Source: Paracoccaceae bacterium (lineage in GTDB: Bacteria > Pseudomonadota > Alphaproteobacteria > Rhodobacterales > Rhodobacteraceae). Taken from it: a stretch of 64,000 bases of DNA. The notes under the pieces are model-generated. The model was not told where the DNA came from. It did no database searches and saw only the letters and a program-made list of their open reading frames with translations. Of the stretch, positions 42,760-49,935 are shown piece after piece; the stretch's first letter is position 1, and each line of letters opens with the position of its first letter. Location of the stretch: the NCBI GenBank assembly GCA_016938875.1, contig JAFGTV010000038.1, positions 157,770-221,769 of the forward strand, read 5' to 3'. The position numbers and the translations under genes were made by a program.

Positions 42760-42806
42760 GCCAGGGTCTTGCGCGGGCGGGGCGGGGCGGCTAGATCGTG
42801 GCCTGT

Positions 42807-42882
42807 GCCCCTATAGCTCAGCTGGTAGAGCATCTGATTTGTAATCAGAGGGTCGGGAGTTCGAGTCTCTCTGGGGGCACCA
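42807..42882 (+). tRNA. tRNA-Thr (anticodon UGU)
   Basis: The cloverleaf is complete. Acceptor GCCCCTA (42807-42813) pairs with TGGGGGC (42872-42878). The D arm is GCTC...GAGC. The anticodon stem TCTGA/TCAGA encloses the loop TTTGTAA (anticodon TGT). The T arm GGGAG-TTCGAGT-CTCTC follows, then discriminator A and an encoded CCA (42880-42882). Confidence 0.97.
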
Positions 42883-43190
42883 TGTCCATCGCCTGCCTGT
42901 CCGTCAGCCCCGGTTCTTTGGCAAAGCCGAGTGGGCGTATGACAAATCCGTTCGCTCCTCGTTCAACAAGAACGGCACGTGCGACATCGCGGGGCGCGTT
43001 TCGGGGGCCAGACCCGCTGTGCTCGATCGTGCCTGCGGGGGAGGCCGCGCCGCGGGTCCATGCCGGGGGCTTGCAGGCACGGGCCTGCAGTTTGCGCTTG
43101 GTATGGGTTATGGGGTGGCGCGGGCGCGTGGCTTGCCGCATCCATGGCGTTCCGGTCGGGCGCCTGTGTGTCGCGCAGGGCGTCGGCGGG
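42883..43190. other. Gene-free stretch after tRNA-Thr
   Basis: No credible coding frame. It contains a short hairpin TGCAGGC/GCCTGCA (43072-43089) followed by TTTGCG that might end tRNA transcription. The position directly 3' of a tRNA is a common integration site, but I see no integrase and no repeated tRNA 3' end within the window. Confidence 0.5.
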
Positions 43191-44117
43191 TCAGGACGGC
43201 GGGGGGGCGTCCTCCAGGGCCGGATAGATCTGCCGGGCGAGGGGGCGGGTCGCCAGCAGGGCGATGCGGTGTTCCCAGCTGTGACCGGGGTCGCGCCAGC
43301 CCATGCTGGGGCGGATCGGCACGTCGGATTTCCGCTCGGCCAACACTTTCTCGTTCGCGGGCGGGAACAGGTGCTGGCGCCCCCAGGAAAGCGTCGCGCG
43401 ATCGGGCTCCGGGAACAGGGCAGGGGGCATGACCAGTCCCGCCCAGTCGTGCACCAGGGCGATCTGCTGCTCGGGGGCGGCGGCGAAGTCCTCATAGCGC
43501 AACTGGCGGAACCGCGCGCCCAGCGCCGGACCCCAGTCCGACAGCCGCTTTTGGCGTTGCAGCCATTTCCGCGCATTGCTGAACGTGTCGCGCCGCGAGC
43601 CCTTTTTCAGGTTCCAGCTGACGGCCACGGCGCGCGGATCGCGCACCAGGTTCAGCAGCAGCAACTCTCCCGGGGCGATCAGGTGAAAGGCCAGCGCCAT
43701 CTCGGGGGTCTTGGAGCTGTCAATCAGCGTCTCGGCCCCGGTTGCGTCCGCGATCGCGTCCACCAGCCGCGCCAGCGGGGCGAGATAGTCCTGATGCGCC
43801 TGTCGCAATCGGTCCAGACCCTGCGGGTCGTGCCAGTCCCGCGTGCGGCCGGCCGCCTTGAAAAACCGCCGTCCGGCTGCGCCGAAGGCGCGGATGTCAG
43901 ACTCTGCCCGGGGGCCGAAAACGGCGTCCATGACCGGCGCGTAAACCGTGCAGCCGTGCAGCGGCTGATCGCAGCTGCACGGCGCATCATCGCGCCAGGC
44001 CGCCGGCAAATGGCGATGCTGCCCCAGGTTGAAGGCCCGGTCCGACTGCGACAGCAAAAGCGACAGAAGCGTGCTGCCGGAACGGCCACTGCCCGAGATT
44101 GCAACGATGCGTGTCAC
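43191..44117 (-). CDS. Sulfotransferase family protein
   Basis: 308 residues, cytosolic PAPS-dependent fold. The 5'-phosphosulfate loop is ISGSGRSGSTLLSLLL (about 7-22) and the 3'-phosphate site LVRDPRAVAVSW (158-168). IDSSKTPEMA (132-141) supplies the further conserved Ser/Lys. The start is GTG 44117 behind AGGAGG; the frame continues upstream but without family sequence. It is divergent from the second sulfotransferase with a 139-nt shared promoter gap. Acceptor unknown; a glycan, lipid or peptide is possible. Confidence 0.85.
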   Translation of the reverse strand: MTRIVAISGSGRSGSTLLSLLLSQSDRAFNLGQHRHLPAAWRDDAPCSCDQPLHGCTVYAPVMDAVFGPRAESDIRAFGAAGRRFFKAAGRTRDWHDPQGLDRLRQAHQDYLAPLARLVDAIADATGAETLIDSSKTPEMALAFHLIAPGELLLLNLVRDPRAVAVSWNLKKGSRRDTFSNARKWLQRQKRLSDWGPALGARFRQLRYEDFAAAPEQQIALVHDWAGLVMPPALFPEPDRATLSWGRQHLFPPANEKVLAERKSDVPIRPSMGWRDPGHSWEHRIALLATRPLARQIYPALEDAPPPS

Positions 44118-44256
44118 CTGGCCTCCTGGTCCGGCCGACCGGCCCAACGGGCCTTGCTTGGCGGTCTTTGGGGCGTCATTTTTCGTGTGTGTTTTCGCGT
44201 GTATCTTTGTATGCCTTTCCCTAACGAATAAACGCACATGGACCAAGTGGAATAAC

Positions 44257-45306
44257 ATGAGCCCCACGCAGCCCGCGCCCGGCGCGCCGATATTCCTGAT
44301 CTGCTCGGAACGCTCGGGGTCCAACCTGGCCAGCGTGATCATGGGCGCGCATGGCGGCATTTATGCCCATCCGCCCTATCACATGGGCCGCGACGTGCTC
44401 ATGAAGCTGCACGATGCGCTGGCCGGTGGCCCGACCGGAGAGGCCTGGGCATTGTTGCGCGACAACGCGGTGGCGCGGGTCGGGCAGTACCGCGACGCGC
44501 AAGAGGCGCAGCGCCTGGCGGACTGGTTCGCCGCGCAGGGCCGGATCGACCCGTGCGCGATTGCCCGCTTTATCTGGCAGCAGATGCCGCCAGAGGCCAG
44601 TGGCAGGCGGCCCTTCGTCAAGGAAAACAACATTCACAGGTTGCTGCCGTTTCTGGTGAGCTGCTTTCCGGATGCGCAGTTCCTCTTTCAGGTGCGCGAT
44701 CCACGCGACTTTCTGGCCTCGGCCAAGGCACGCAGCAACGGACGGTTCGGCAACAAGTTCGGCTCGCTGCGCGAAGCGTTGCGTGTCTGGCGCGACGATC
44801 AGGAGGGCGGCCTTGCGGCGCTTTCGCTGTTGGGGCCCGAAAAGGTTACGCTGCTGCGTTACGAGGATCTGCTGGCCGATCCCCAGGCACAGCTGCGCCG
44901 GGTCTGCGCCTTTCTCGGACTGGATTTCGATCCCGCGATGCTCAGCTTTCACGAGACCGAGGCCGCCTCGCGGCTGGCGGGGACGCATGACGCACGCCAG
45001 AATGTCGGACGCCCGTTGATCACCGACAATGCTGCCAAATATCGAAAGAACCTGTCGAAATCCGAGATCCGCACGGTCGAGACCCATCTGGGCGACCTGA
45101 TGGACCGCTTTGGCTATGAGAGCGATTATCCGCGCGACTCTCGCCGCAGCGCCTGGCGTGCGCTGAAACCTTGCATGACCGAGGCGGTGGAACGGATCGT
45201 CAACAAGCAACTGCGCGCGCGTTACAAGAATGACAACACGCGGTTGGTCGATGCGCTGGACCGGGTCGCCCGCCCGGTGCCGGGCATGGGCCAGGACGGG
45301 GGCTGA
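44257..45306 (+). CDS. Sulfotransferase family protein, coupled to the adenylation-carrier-SGNH gene
   Basis: 349 residues. The PAPS 5' loop is FLICSERSGSNLASVIM (13-29) and the 3'-phosphate site FQVRDPRDFLASAKARS (144-160), with LRYEDLLADPQAQLRRVCAFLGLDFDP, a frequent sulfotransferase block. The C-terminal 80 residues are basic and Arg-rich. Stop TGA at 45304-45306 is 2 nt before the GTG start of the next gene, so the two are almost certainly translated as a unit. The likely role is to sulfate the product or scaffold handled by the downstream protein (inference). Confidence 0.85.
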   Translation: MSPTQPAPGAPIFLICSERSGSNLASVIMGAHGGIYAHPPYHMGRDVLMKLHDALAGGPTGEAWALLRDNAVARVGQYRDAQEAQRLADWFAAQGRIDPCAIARFIWQQMPPEASGRRPFVKENNIHRLLPFLVSCFPDAQFLFQVRDPRDFLASAKARSNGRFGNKFGSLREALRVWRDDQEGGLAALSLLGPEKVTLLRYEDLLADPQAQLRRVCAFLGLDFDPAMLSFHETEAASRLAGTHDARQNVGRPLITDNAAKYRKNLSKSEIRTVETHLGDLMDRFGYESDYPRDSRRSAWRALKPCMTEAVERIVNKQLRARYKNDNTRLVDALDRVARPVPGMGQDGG

Positions 45307-45308
45307 CC

Positions 45309-47999
45309 GTGAGCCGTGCCATGGGCGACTTTCCAGGACGTATTCTGGACCATGGCCGGACCGCGGCGCGAGCCAGTGCGCTGGAAATCGACGGCGAATG
45401 TTGGAGTTATGGCGCCTTGCTGGCGGCGGTGGGGCGGATCGCACCCGCGCTGCCAGAGCCGCAGGCCGGCGCGGCGCAACCGGTAACGGCGGTGATGGTT
45501 CACCGCCACGCCTCCGCCTATATCGGCCTTTTGGCGGCACATCTGCGTGGCCATGCCTTCGTGCCGATCAATGTCGGCCATCCCGCCTCGCGCAGCGCCC
45601 GCGTGTTGCAGATGTCGGGCGCGAAACAGGTGATCTGCGGTGCGTTGGCGCGGGATCGGCTCGACTCGATCCTGGCCGTGGCGCCCGAGGTGGCCCAGCG
45701 GCTTGAGATCGTCGAGTGTGGCGAACGGTTGGTGGATTTTCCCGACACGGCGCTGCCCGGGGACCTGGGCGGCCCGGCACCGGACGCGCTGGCCTATATC
45801 ATGTTCACCTCTGGCAGCACGGGCGAGCCCAAGGGGGTGCCCGTCGGCCAGGACAACCTGTCGGCCTATCTGCACGCGGTTGACCAGGTGTTTCCGGCCG
45901 TGCCCGGCGACCGGTTTTCCCAGACCTTCGATCTGAATTTCGATCTTGGCATGCACGACATCTTCGTGGCCTTGACGCGCGGGGCCACACTGGTGGTGCC
46001 CTCGCATGCCGAGATGGGCGATATCGCCGCCTGGACGCGAAAGAAGCGGATCACCAACTGGTTCTCGGTGCCGACACTGGGGTATCAGGTCCGGCTTCAG
46101 AACGAGTTGAGCGCGGGCGCCTTTCCCGACCTGCGTTCGGTGCTGTTCTGCGGCGAGGTGCTTTCGGCGCAGCTGGCCCGCGACTGGCAGGCCGCAGCCC
46201 CGAACGCGATCGTGGAAAACTGGTACGGCCCGACCGAGGCCACGATTGCATGCGCGCGGCATGTCCTGTCGGCGCAGGACGCCGGCGGCGGGGCCGACGC
46301 GGTGCCGATCGGCCGACCCTTTCCCGGCATGACGATGCATGTGCTGGACGCGGCGGGCGCGCCCTGTGCTGCGGGAACCGTAGGCTCGCTTTACCTGTCC
46401 GGCCCGCAGCTGGCGCGCGGCTACCTGGATGATCCCGACAGGACGCGCAAAAGCTTTGTGTCGCTGCCCGACGGGACGCGGGCCTATCGCACGGGGGACC
46501 GGGCCGTGCTCGACAAGACCGGGATCACGCATTTTCTCGGGCGCGAGGATTCCCAGATCAAGCTGCGCGGCTACCGGATCGAACTGGGCGAGGTCGAGGG
46601 TGCGCTGCGCGACGCCAGCGGCGGGGGCAACGTGGTCGTGCTGCCCTGGCCGCCCGATGCGGCCGCCGTCGGCTCGCTGATCGGGGTGGTCGAGGGGGAG
46701 GGCGCCGATGCCGGCATCCGGCAGGCGTTGCAACGGAACCTGCCCGATTACATGGTGCCCGCGGAAATCCTGTCGCTGCCGCGGTTTCCCCGCAATGCCA
46801 GCGGCAAGGTGGACCGGCGCGCCCTGGCCGAGGACGTGGCGGCACACCTTCAGGCGGACAGGGTCGCGCTGCCCTCTGACGATCTGGAAAGGGCGTTGCT
46901 GGAGGCGGTGCTGACCGCCGCCCCGGCGATTTCGCGCCACCGGGTGCTGTCGGGGTCCAGCCTTTTGGCAATCGGCATGGATTCGCTGGCGTTCATCCAG
47001 CTTACCATGCTGCTGGAGGACCGCTTTGGGCTCATGCTCGACCAGGCCGAGGTCGTGCGCTTTTCGGAAATGAGCTTTGGCGCCATGGCCAGAGAGATCC
47101 GCGCCCGGCGTGATCAGCCAACGCGCACGCGCAAACGGACCGGCGCGCTGCGGCGGCTGTTGCGCGCCATCAAGGTGCCGCGCCGCAAGCTGAATGTCCG
47201 GCTGTTGCGCACCTTGCAATTCGTCGACCGCTTTCCCCGGGCCCTGGACGACGCATCCGCCCCACTGGTGATTGCGGTCGGGTCATCGGGTGTTTTCCGC
47301 GCCTTCTCGCCCGAGGTGGTCGAGCGTGAATTGGGCGACCGGGTGAGCGCGATCAATGCCGGGCTGCCCGCGGTGTCGCCGGACGGGCTGGTGACGATCT
47401 GCGCCTTTATCCGCGACGAATGCCGCAAGCGTGGGCTGCGGATACGGACCTGCCTGTGGGAACTCGACCCGATGCATATCAGCACCTCGCCCCCCGCCGG
47501 CGACGTTGACGTGACGCAGCGGCACATCGCGCGCGGCCTGCGTGGCGTGCGGCTGCCCGAAACCGCCTCGGAATTCGACTGGTCGCTGGACGAGCGCGGC
47601 GCGTGGCTGGCCGATCCCGACCGCCCGATCCAGCGTCGCCACCCCGACTGGGCGCGCGCGCGCGACATGGTGATCGCGCAGACCTATCGCGGCGCGCTGG
47701 AGATCGACCCGACCCGCCTGGCGGCCTGGAAGGAGGGCGCGCGCCTGCTTTCGCAGGTGAGTGACGAGATGGTGTGCTTTGTGCATCCCGCCGATCCCGA
47801 CATGCTGGCCGAGGTGCCGCAGGCGGTGGGCGAGGACAGGCTTGCAACCCTGCTCGACGCGGTGGCGCGCGACACGGGCCTTCGCGTGTTGCCCTGGCAG
47901 GGGTTCATGCTGCAATCGGACGATTTCATGGATATCAACCACGTGAACGCCGTGCGTGGCCGTGCGGCCCTGTCGGCCCAGTTGGCGCGGATGCTGTAA
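45309..47999 (+). CDS. Adenylation - carrier protein - SGNH-like tri-domain protein
   Basis: 896 residues. (a) NRPS/DltA-like adenylation domain, 1-about 510: core A3 YIMFTSGSTGEPKGVP (163-178), A4/A5 FDLNFDLGMHDIF and NWYGPTEATIA, A7 YRTGD, A8 KLRGYRIELGEVE (about 417-430), A10 NASGKVD with the catalytic Lys near 500. (b) Phosphopantetheine carrier domain, about 515-600, with Ser559 in GMDSLAFIQL. (c) C-terminal SGNH/DltD- or AlgX-like domain, about 655-896, with GSSG (658-661) as nucleophile block and DINH (Asp875, His878) near the end. No condensation or thioesterase domain. The start is GTG 45309 (alternative ATG 45321). It presumably activates an amino or hydroxy acid, loads it, and transfers it to a hydroxyl acceptor. 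Confidence 0.85.
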   Translation: MSRAMGDFPGRILDHGRTAARASALEIDGECWSYGALLAAVGRIAPALPEPQAGAAQPVTAVMVHRHASAYIGLLAAHLRGHAFVPINVGHPASRSARVLQMSGAKQVICGALARDRLDSILAVAPEVAQRLEIVECGERLVDFPDTALPGDLGGPAPDALAYIMFTSGSTGEPKGVPVGQDNLSAYLHAVDQVFPAVPGDRFSQTFDLNFDLGMHDIFVALTRGATLVVPSHAEMGDIAAWTRKKRITNWFSVPTLGYQVRLQNELSAGAFPDLRSVLFCGEVLSAQLARDWQAAAPNAIVENWYGPTEATIACARHVLSAQDAGGGADAVPIGRPFPGMTMHVLDAAGAPCAAGTVGSLYLSGPQLARGYLDDPDRTRKSFVSLPDGTRAYRTGDRAVLDKTGITHFLGREDSQIKLRGYRIELGEVEGALRDASGGGNVVVLPWPPDAAAVGSLIGVVEGEGADAGIRQALQRNLPDYMVPAEILSLPRFPRNASGKVDRRALAEDVAAHLQADRVALPSDDLERALLEAVLTAAPAISRHRVLSGSSLLAIGMDSLAFIQLTMLLEDRFGLMLDQAEVVRFSEMSFGAMAREIRARRDQPTRTRKRTGALRRLLRAIKVPRRKLNVRLLRTLQFVDRFPRALDDASAPLVIAVGSSGVFRAFSPEVVERELGDRVSAINAGLPAVSPDGLVTICAFIRDECRKRGLRIRTCLWELDPMHISTSPPAGDVDVTQRHIARGLRGVRLPETASEFDWSLDERGAWLADPDRPIQRRHPDWARARDMVIAQTYRGALEIDPTRLAAWKEGARLLSQVSDEMVCFVHPADPDMLAEVPQAVGEDRLATLLDAVARDTGLRVLPWQGFMLQSDDFMDINHVNAVRGRAALSAQLARML

Positions 48000-48888: not shown

Positions 48889-49935
48889 TCAATCCGGCTG
48901 GAACCCGGCGATCAGCCGTTTCAGCCCGACATAGGCCCCCGCGCCGATCGCCGCCAGCGTCACCGGCGCGGAATAGGCCAACGTCGAAAAGGCCGTGGCC
49001 CCCTGGCCGACCGAGCAGCCCAGCGCGACCACGCCGCCGATCCCCATCAGTGCCGCGCCGCCGACCTGGCGGCCCAGCTCGCGCGGATCCTCGCAGGCCT
49101 CCCAGCGAAAGGTGCCCTTGCGCCACGATCCGATCCAGGCGCCCAGCAGCACCCCCATCACCGAGCCGACCGAGAAGGACAGCCCCCCCGCCGACGAGGT
49201 CATCAACCACATCAACGTACGCCCCAGCGGCGCGGTAAAGGTGTGCCCCTCGACCGTGACGGCGCCCAAGGTGGCGGTGTTCAGCACCGATGTGCCCCAC
49301 AGTGCCCCCGCGACCGACAGGCCCACCGCCACGCCCCAGCCGATCCGGCGCGGCTCTGCCCGGAACGGGGCATGGGCCAGCGCCCAAGCGAACAGGCCCG
49401 CCGCGATGATCAGTGCCGCCAGCAGCACCGGCACCCCGGTCAGGTCGTGGGCCAGATTGGCCAGACCCTGCATCCGGTCGGCCGGGATCTGCGGAAAGGC
49501 CCAGTCGCGCAACGGCGCCAGCGGCCCCGACAGGGTGACAAAGCCAAAGATCGAGATCACCACCACGATCACCAGCGAGCGCAGATCGCCCCCGCCGAAC
49601 CGCGCCAGCGCGCCAAAGCCGCAATTGCCCGCCAGCGCCATGCCATAGCCGAACAATCCGCCCCCCAGCACGCTGGCCAGCGGGTTCCATTGCAGCCCGT
49701 GATAGGCGGTTTTCATCAGGTCGATCTGTCCCGCCGCGGCCAGCAGATAGGTGGCCGCGATCCCGGTGCCCAGCACCACGCCCCACATCCGCAAGCGGCG
49801 CTGGTCGGCACCGTAGATCGCGCTTTCGAGGGCGCCCAGGGTGCAAAACTCGCCCAGTCGCGCGCCCAGGCCCAGCACACAGCCCGTCACAAGGCCAATC
49901 AGCGCAGCCCAGGCGCCAACCGGAATGATGTCCAT
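48889..49935 (-). CDS. soxT: SoxT-like YeeE/YedE family transporter
   Basis: 348 residues, about nine helices: a full-length YeeE/YedE protein with both Cys-containing halves, GNCGFGALARFGGGDLRSLVI (about 100-120) and ALGCSVGQGATAFSTLAYSAP (about 305-325). YeeE proteins conduct thiosulfate. soxT adjoins soxR in other Sox bacteria and is proposed to bring in a sulfur signal or substrate. It follows soxR by 35 nt. Confidence 0.88.
   Translation of the reverse strand: MDIIPVGAWAALIGLVTGCVLGLGARLGEFCTLGALESAIYGADQRRLRMWGVVLGTGIAATYLLAAAGQIDLMKTAYHGLQWNPLASVLGGGLFGYGMALAGNCGFGALARFGGGDLRSLVIVVVISIFGFVTLSGPLAPLRDWAFPQIPADRMQGLANLAHDLTGVPVLLAALIIAAGLFAWALAHAPFRAEPRRIGWGVAVGLSVAGALWGTSVLNTATLGAVTVEGHTFTAPLGRTLMWLMTSSAGGLSFSVGSVMGVLLGAWIGSWRKGTFRWEACEDPRELGRQVGGAALMGIGGVVALGCSVGQGATAFSTLAYSAPVTLAAIGAGAYVGLKRLIAGFQPD

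Follow-up and report, generated by a model that had tools for sequence, protein, structure and literature searches.

A one-chain adenylation-carrier-SGNH protein with recurrent sulfotransferase partners and a Dlt-like logic in a Paracoccaceae bacterium

We examined a 64,000-nucleotide stretch of DNA from a Paracoccaceae bacterium (GenBank assembly GCA_016938875.1, contig JAFGTV010000038.1, positions 157,770 to 221,769 of the forward strand), referred to below as the window and numbered from its first letter. One gene on its plus strand is predicted to encode an 896-residue protein in which an adenylation (A) domain, a carrier (PCP) domain and an SGNH-type C-terminal domain are joined in a single chain (the A-PCP-SGNH protein), and two sulfotransferase genes, ST1 and ST2, lie upstream of it. 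The gene and its parts are as follows:

45309..47999, plus strand: the whole A-PCP-SGNH gene (896 aa; GTG start, possible alternative ATG at 45321)
45369..46847, plus strand: adenylation domain, about residues 21-513 (borders approximate; Pfam and TIGRFAM-type model matches)
46896..47099, plus strand: carrier (PCP) domain, about residues 530-597 (borders estimated; PF00550 at 550-582, Ser559 in GMDSL)
47103..47201, plus strand: Lys/Arg-rich linker, about residues 599-631 (by charge count)
47202..47996, plus strand: SGNH-type C-terminal domain (Ser659/Ser660 in block I, Asn683/Gly685 in a block II-like stretch, Asp875/His878 in block V)

An earlier note on this DNA, written from the letters alone, had read the product as adenylation, carrier and SGNH-type domains in one chain with a Dlt-like logic, and this arrangement is borne out by the domain matches and by its conservation in 13 relatives (L029-L038 and L108-L110). 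All 13 have the A, carrier and C-terminal regions in the same order, and since the order recurs in this way the architecture is not due to chance; the L108 relative contains unread bases and reads as two open reading frames (ORFs). The L029-L038 proteins, which are 35-58% identical to the window protein, were aligned with it (n = 11, called the members below). Motifs listed in the note were found where it had put them, namely TSGSTGEPKG at residue 167, GMDSL at 556 with the carrier Ser559, GSSG at 658-661 and DINH at 875-878, and the lysine it had placed near residue 500 is Lys500, invariant in 11 of 11 aligned sequences. In the window's own genome the only full-length match to the gene was the gene itself, and seven other places gave matches of 25-31% identity to portions of the A-domain region.

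Pfam AMP-binding (PF00501) covered residues 21-373 (E 4.4e-61), and AMP-binding_C matched residues 465-500 below its Pfam cut-off. The general amino-acid adenylation model TIGR01733 was passed with 332 bits against a cut-off of 317; the DltA equivalog TIGR01734 gave a nearly full-length match, yet its 263 bits fell short of the cut-off of 560. PP-binding (PF00550) passed its cut-off over residues 550-582 (E 7.3e-5; 23.4 bits against 20.8), and D558 and S559 of the carrier are invariant in all 11 aligned sequences. When the A domain was searched against PDB sequences, the top matches were linear gramicidin synthetase chains and DltA (3e7w) came tenth (E 2.4e-62). The ten pocket-code positions were placed by hand using what we take to be the GrsA numbering. 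The resulting code, DLHFLCWIAK, is identical in 9 of the 11 members (the exceptions are DPHFLCWIVK and DLHFLCWISK), which suggests one substrate, and it matches no code known to us. An Asp at the first place of the code fits an alpha-amino acid; the A domain retains this amino-acid Asp (D212) as well as a pocket Cys in the LFCGE motif. In B. cereus DltA, Cys269 lies at the bottom of the D-alanine pocket (PMC4176424). The LFCGE Cys corresponds to this residue by hand motif alignment, and the Cys alone does not decide the amino acid. Our guess is that the activated acid is a small alpha-amino acid of the glycine or alanine type.

Pfam gave no match to a condensation or thioesterase domain in the A-PCP-SGNH protein, and no membrane helix is evident on a simple hydropathy scale, used without a signal-peptide predictor (highest mean over 19 residues: 1.7 for the window protein, 1.83 among the 11 members). 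Both results are in line with the earlier note, which had also remarked that no MBOAT protein is adjacent; the gene families found for the window neighbours include no MBOAT, and one match lies on another contig of the genome. Between the carrier and the C-terminal domain the linker is strongly basic, with a net charge of +14 over residues 599-639 in a protein of -6 overall. Seven of the ten aligned relatives share a strongly basic linker (+5 to +18), and in the three aligned ST2 fusions it is weakly basic (+2, +3); the linker may contact the membrane or an anionic acceptor, perhaps a sulfated one.

In none of the 11 members did the C-terminal domain match a Pfam family below E 0.017, and DltD (PF04914) was unmatched in all 11 members and in the window's own genome. 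A profile of the domain was built from the 11 members and searched against 349 genomes of the phylum; some match at E ≤1 came from 55 of them, nearly all of these matches being short and weak. Outside the family, the strongest match (E 1.1e-9, over profile positions 5-96, first blocks only) was to a protein of 412 residues, its ORF overlapping that of an MBOAT:

L044:1309-2547: MBOAT-neighbour SGNH protein (DltD match of 21.3 bits, narrowly missing the cut-off of 22.7)

The SGNH assignment of this protein itself rests on its MBOAT neighbour, its motifs and the sub-cut-off DltD match. Comparison of the window family with it by hhalign gave a probability of 97.2% over 256 columns, with GSS placed on GSS and DINH on DTTH; in a direct hidden Markov model test it scored 68.4 bits in two stretches, and 999 shuffles reached at most 3.0. 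Three of the weaker matches that follow it (E 7e-4 to 3e-3) were read and have G[ST]S early and H-x-N-x-x-G late. Profile comparison with four such proteins pooled gave 96.4% over 80 columns, two of the four taken singly aligned only in the first blocks, at 88.5% and 85.8%, and three unrelated proteins used as hhalign controls gave 0.5%, 0.1% and 0.1%. From the profile, hhalign and shuffle results we accepted an SGNH-type domain of the MBOAT-partner class: as judged by profile comparison, the C-terminal domain is homologous to the MBOAT-neighbour SGNH protein, and what the earlier note had guessed from two motifs is now backed by profile evidence. The Asp875/His878 pair proposed there held in one half, as counted over 14 sequences, the last three read by eye: His878 is invariant in 14/14, like GSSG, and residue 875 is Asp in 7/14 and Asn in 7/14.

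The C-terminal profile had nothing below E 0.25 in PDB, and the MBOAT-neighbour SGNH protein had no PDB match up to E 1. When the C-terminal domain itself was searched against PDB, designed repeat proteins (best E 2.2e-4, with no single stretch passing by itself), a dUTPase (E 0.035) and an oxygenase-reductase (E 0.38) came up, and all were treated as chance. The C-terminal domain is under purifying selection, with a ratio of nonsynonymous to synonymous substitution rates (dN/dS) of about 0.21-0.43 in three pairs, values that are rough because dS is near 1. Between the window and its nearest relative, L031, dN/dS was 0.36 for the C-terminal domain, 0.37 for the A domain and 0.96 for the linker.

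Neither of the two sulfotransferase genes upstream had entered the account given in the earlier note. They are arranged as follows (PAPS is 3'-phosphoadenosine-5'-phosphosulfate):

44257..45306, plus strand: ST2, PAPS-type sulfotransferase (Sulfotransfer_3, PF13469, E 3e-28)
43191..44117, minus strand: ST1, divergent sulfotransferase (Sulfotransfer_3, PF13469, E 5.9e-12; probable GTG start at 44117 behind AGGAGG)
44118..44256, no strand: divergent intergenic region of 139 bases, deduced from the start codons and presumed to hold both promoters

ST2 ends 2 bases upstream of the GTG of the A-PCP-SGNH gene and 14 upstream of the alternative ATG. ST1 proteins share the invariant motif G-x-G-R-x-G-x-T (11 members), ST2 proteins share ERSGSN (9 members), and RDPR is found in both; motifs of this kind are PAPS-binding. 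A relative of ST1 adjoins the main gene in 11 of the 13 relatives (nine of the first ten, L109 and L110, the last as a C-terminal fragment of only 34 residues at a contig edge), in an orientation that may be divergent, as in the window, in line or convergent. ST2 is adjacent or fused in 8/13: it is separate and adjacent in L031, L032 and L033, and fused to the N-terminus of the A-PCP-SGNH protein in L034, L036, L037, L109 and L110. An additional sulfotransferase gene overlaps the 3' end of the main gene in L031, L036, L037 and L109. Sulfotransferase fusion together with a neighbourhood that recurs across genera is strong evidence that the predicted ST1, ST2 and A-PCP-SGNH proteins belong to one pathway. 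ST1 further carries three invariant Cys (47, 49 and 56 counted from the GTG) in all 11 aligned members, possibly a structural or metal site. A non-ribosomal peptide synthetase (NRPS) of Exilibacterium (L018:7199-14881) holds an internal ST2-like stretch (22% identity, E 4.6e-8) and is possibly another NRPS-sulfotransferase fusion.

The module is rare and scattered. The C-terminal domain was found in 4/147 relatives' genomes, 2/385 genomes of the class and 9/390 of the order, and a profile search of the family found it in 7/394 genomes; each of these four counts includes the window's genome, and the samples overlap. Of the window's own genus, 3/16 genomes carry the A-PCP-SGNH module. Among plasmid records, matches came from Leisingera thetidis and Phaeobacter sp. 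G2, and scanning of phage records and viral contigs found no relative. Three weak matches among the nine of the order (G594, G613 and G823; E 2.3e-5 to 9.6e-4, with internal stops) were dropped, as no C-terminal relative was present among the ORFs of their loci. A-domain similarity brought up a further eight loci, and a search of the ORFs of seven of them (L013-L019, without L020) found no C-terminal domain. The two public records, on the Leisingera and Phaeobacter plasmids, annotate such proteins as 'non-ribosomal peptide synthetase', and no description of the A-PCP-SGNH architecture was found in titles or abstracts among the matches listed.

Glycosyltransferase genes lie near 4 of the 13 relatives. 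On the Leisingera and Phaeobacter plasmids the main gene stands among glycosyltransferase and sugar-nucleotide genes and genes for polysaccharide or sugar export; at L031 it is followed by sulfotransferases and a group 1 glycosyltransferase; the fourth case is L108. At a fifth relative, L035, an exosortase lies nearby and was counted as a hint only; exosortases are protein-sorting genes that often accompany exopolysaccharide genes. In a partial scan of neighbouring genes, no clear glycan gene was seen in the window, L032, L033, L034, L036, L037, L038, L109 or L110. Directly downstream of the L033 relative (L033:6487-8832), FAD-binding and FMN oxidoreductase domains are joined in one reading frame.

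Two other features of the window flank the module:

42807..42882, plus strand: tRNA-Thr(TGT), a similarity boundary in same-genus stretches
48152..~48920 and 48889..49935, minus strand: HGSNAT/DUF1624-type membrane acyltransferase gene, convergent to the module, and adjoining sulfur transport (Sulf_transp) gene

Similarity to the window stops at the 3' end of the tRNA-Thr (42882/42883) in seven of nine same-genus stretches, and G006 and G007 stop before the tRNA; these two draft genomes carry the module on contigs other than the permease-tRNA stretch. Because the conserved sequence ends at the tRNA 3' end, the module lies in a variable region, and the tRNA-Thr is likely a hot spot for variable DNA. 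In the window no repeat of the tRNA end was found that would mark an integration, and guanine-cytosine content gave no clear island signal. An ORF at 42798-44231 was not accepted as a gene, since it begins 9 bases ahead of the tRNA-Thr, reads through the tRNA, belongs to no family and overlaps the opposite-strand ST1. The HGSNAT-type gene (48152, minus strand) was rejected as a membrane acyltransferase partner, since a search at E 1e-5 through the ORFs of the first 10 relative loci found no relative of it.

We propose, with a confidence that stops just short of even, that the A-PCP-SGNH protein is a cytosolic one-chain aminoacyl-O-transferase whose acceptor is a sulfated precursor of a glycan or glycolipid. 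The A domain would make an aminoacyl-AMP from a small alpha-amino acid, and the aminoacyl group would be loaded onto the Ser559-phosphopantetheine of the protein's own carrier domain. The tethered carrier would then pass the thioester directly to the Ser of the SGNH domain, which would esterify a hydroxyl of the acceptor in the cytosol; this acceptor would most likely be a glycan or glycolipid precursor, sulfated as well by ST1 and ST2 before export. An MBOAT or AT3 shuttle would be unnecessary because the acyl group stays on one side of the membrane. Direct transfer is the simplest reading because carrier and SGNH domain share one chain, hydropathy showed no membrane helix, and seven of eight relative genomes (listed 99-100% complete) had no MBOAT match, the exception being G092 and the L108-L110 genomes lying outside this search. 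The catalytic activity, the cytosolic location, the amino acid, the acceptor and the timing before export are what we infer here, the glycan acceptor because of the neighbour genes and the sulfotransferases. The earlier note had offered a soluble metabolite as an acceptor; with two linked sulfotransferases and glycosyltransferase genes near 4/13 relatives, this looks less likely than a glycan or glycoconjugate.

The closeness of ST2 to the A domain, fused in 5/13 relatives and 2 bases upstream in the window, would also fit an enzyme in which the A and carrier domains do no more than keep the amino acid tethered, ST2 sulfates this amino acid or a derivative of it on the carrier, and the SGNH domain serves as a thioesterase that releases a small product; sulfation of a carrier-bound acyl group is known in olefin-forming polyketide synthases such as CurM. 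We regard such a product as unlikely: 5/13 relatives have ST2 neither adjacent nor fused and yet retain all other parts of the protein, ST1 accompanies the gene more constantly than ST2, the MBOAT-neighbour SGNH protein to which the SGNH domain is related belongs to a class that includes known transferases, and four clusters contain glycosyltransferase genes. Many members of the SGNH superfamily are esterases, and acceptor specificity is not readable from sequence, so the domain might instead be a carbohydrate esterase that removes or edits glycan acyl groups while the loaded carrier feeds another transferase. That seems quite improbable, as direct hand-over best accounts for a carrier joined to an SGNH domain and no other acyltransferase common to the clusters was found among the genes examined in the partial scan.

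A Dlt-like system with an MBOAT partner encoded elsewhere in the genome and an exported SGNH domain would be in keeping with the single MBOAT match that the window's genome has on a different contig, and with the one in G092. We give this arrangement very little credence, since the seven relative genomes mentioned above are listed as complete or nearly so and had no MBOAT match, and since the SGNH domain ends a chain that begins with cytosolic, ATP-dependent domains and shows no membrane helix on the hydropathy scale. Replacement of the triad Asp by Asn in half of the sequences could mean that the C-terminal domain is catalytically dead and serves for binding only, a view to which the invariant GSSG and His and the purifying selection described above leave hardly any room.

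Several observations weigh against the aminoacyl-O-transferase that we prefer. ST1 was not found in two of the 13 relatives (L035 and L108), and in one of the five without an adjacent or fused ST2, L035, only a distant ST2 relative (30% identity) was present, about 7.5 kb off. A glycan-synthesis gene adjoining the module was seen neither in the window nor in 8/13 relatives among the genes covered by the partial scan, and the exosortase at L035 sorts proteins, its link to polysaccharide being one of association. A phosphopantetheinyl transferase would be required because the carrier needs activation, and the sole match in the genome (listed 95.3% complete) is a 156-residue open frame, probably of the AcpS type. 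The own-genome MBOAT match also counts on this side, and in the family sample an MBOAT match was present in 62/295 genomes and none in 233/295; as MBOAT absence is common in the family, it shows independence rather than a special association. In the C-terminal domain the triad Asp is not strictly conserved, as counted above, and the classical block III Asn was not identified. The domain is less constrained than the A domain in two of the three pairs (dN/dS 0.43 vs 0.34 for the window and L032, 0.21 vs 0.12 for L036 and L037). AlphaFold2 run on a single sequence (window residues 608-896) gave a mean predicted local distance difference test score (pLDDT) of 33 and the model was not used, so the SGNH fold rests on sequence profiles.

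Two major systems of bacterial polymer acylation are described, MBOAT plus an SGNH protein and AT3-SGNH fusions, and both pass the acyl group across the membrane via a Tyr (PMC12148441). Beside these, the locus may tentatively be read as a third arrangement, in which a soluble A-PCP-SGNH enzyme aminoacylates a sulfated glycan precursor inside the cell, some species having a single sulfotransferase-A-PCP-SGNH chain; we hold this to be possible, at somewhat less than an even chance. If so, the surface polymer would be zwitterionic, sulfated and aminoacylated at once. A carrier fused to an SGNH domain would skip the membrane-crossing step and make a compact, fully soluble aminoacyl-ester enzyme, and the recurrent, even fused, sulfotransferases predict a product with both sulfate and amino-acid groups, for which marine Roseobacter-type bacteria would be a place to look. 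Because the two public records say plain 'non-ribosomal peptide synthetase', the family may be overlooked. These features suggest amino-acid decoration of molecules, perhaps sugar polymers, without the usual membrane partner.

The nearest known systems share parts of this plan. NRPS-like single modules (A-T-TE, A-T-R, with T for the carrier, TE for thioesterase and R for reductase) likewise place a terminal domain that offloads the acyl group after an A domain and a carrier; here the terminal domain is of SGNH type, and the sulfotransferase partners are recurrent. With PatA/PatB and OatA the likeness lies in the C-terminal domain, which is homologous to an MBOAT-neighbour SGNH protein and has a block I Ser and, in the window protein, a block V DxxH as in PatB with its Ser133/Asp302/His305 (PMC12148441). 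As described there, the SGNH domains of those systems lie outside the cytoplasmic membrane and are fed through the Tyr of a membrane part, whereas here the donor would be a fused carrier, with no evident membrane part. AlmE/AlmF/AlmG of Vibrio cholerae put glycine on lipid A (PMC12930378), which resembles the present case in that a Gram-negative bacterium uses an adenylation enzyme and a carrier to supply the aminoacyl group for a glycolipid of its envelope. The Alm proteins, however, are separate. AlmG belongs to another acyltransferase family and is not known as an SGNH protein, and we know of no sulfotransferase in the Alm system.

The Dlt system (DltA, DltB, DltC, DltD and DltX; D-alanylation of teichoic acid) has the same sequence of an adenylation enzyme, a carrier thioester and a terminal SGNH-type protein, and the A domain here gives a nearly full-length match to the DltA model and retains the pocket Cys. 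In contrast to Dlt, the three parts form one polypeptide, with the carrier fused rather than present as a separate small DltC; no MBOAT neighbour was found; the DltA score lies below its cut-off and the DltD profile finds no match; and there are sulfotransferase partners and alphaproteobacterial hosts. Since the DltA cut-off was not reached, DltD was unmatched and seven of eight relative genomes had no MBOAT match, the A-PCP-SGNH protein, as read from its domains, follows a Dlt-like logic and is not a Dlt member. What is new relative to Dlt is, on the same reading, a variant of this logic in partnership with sulfotransferases.

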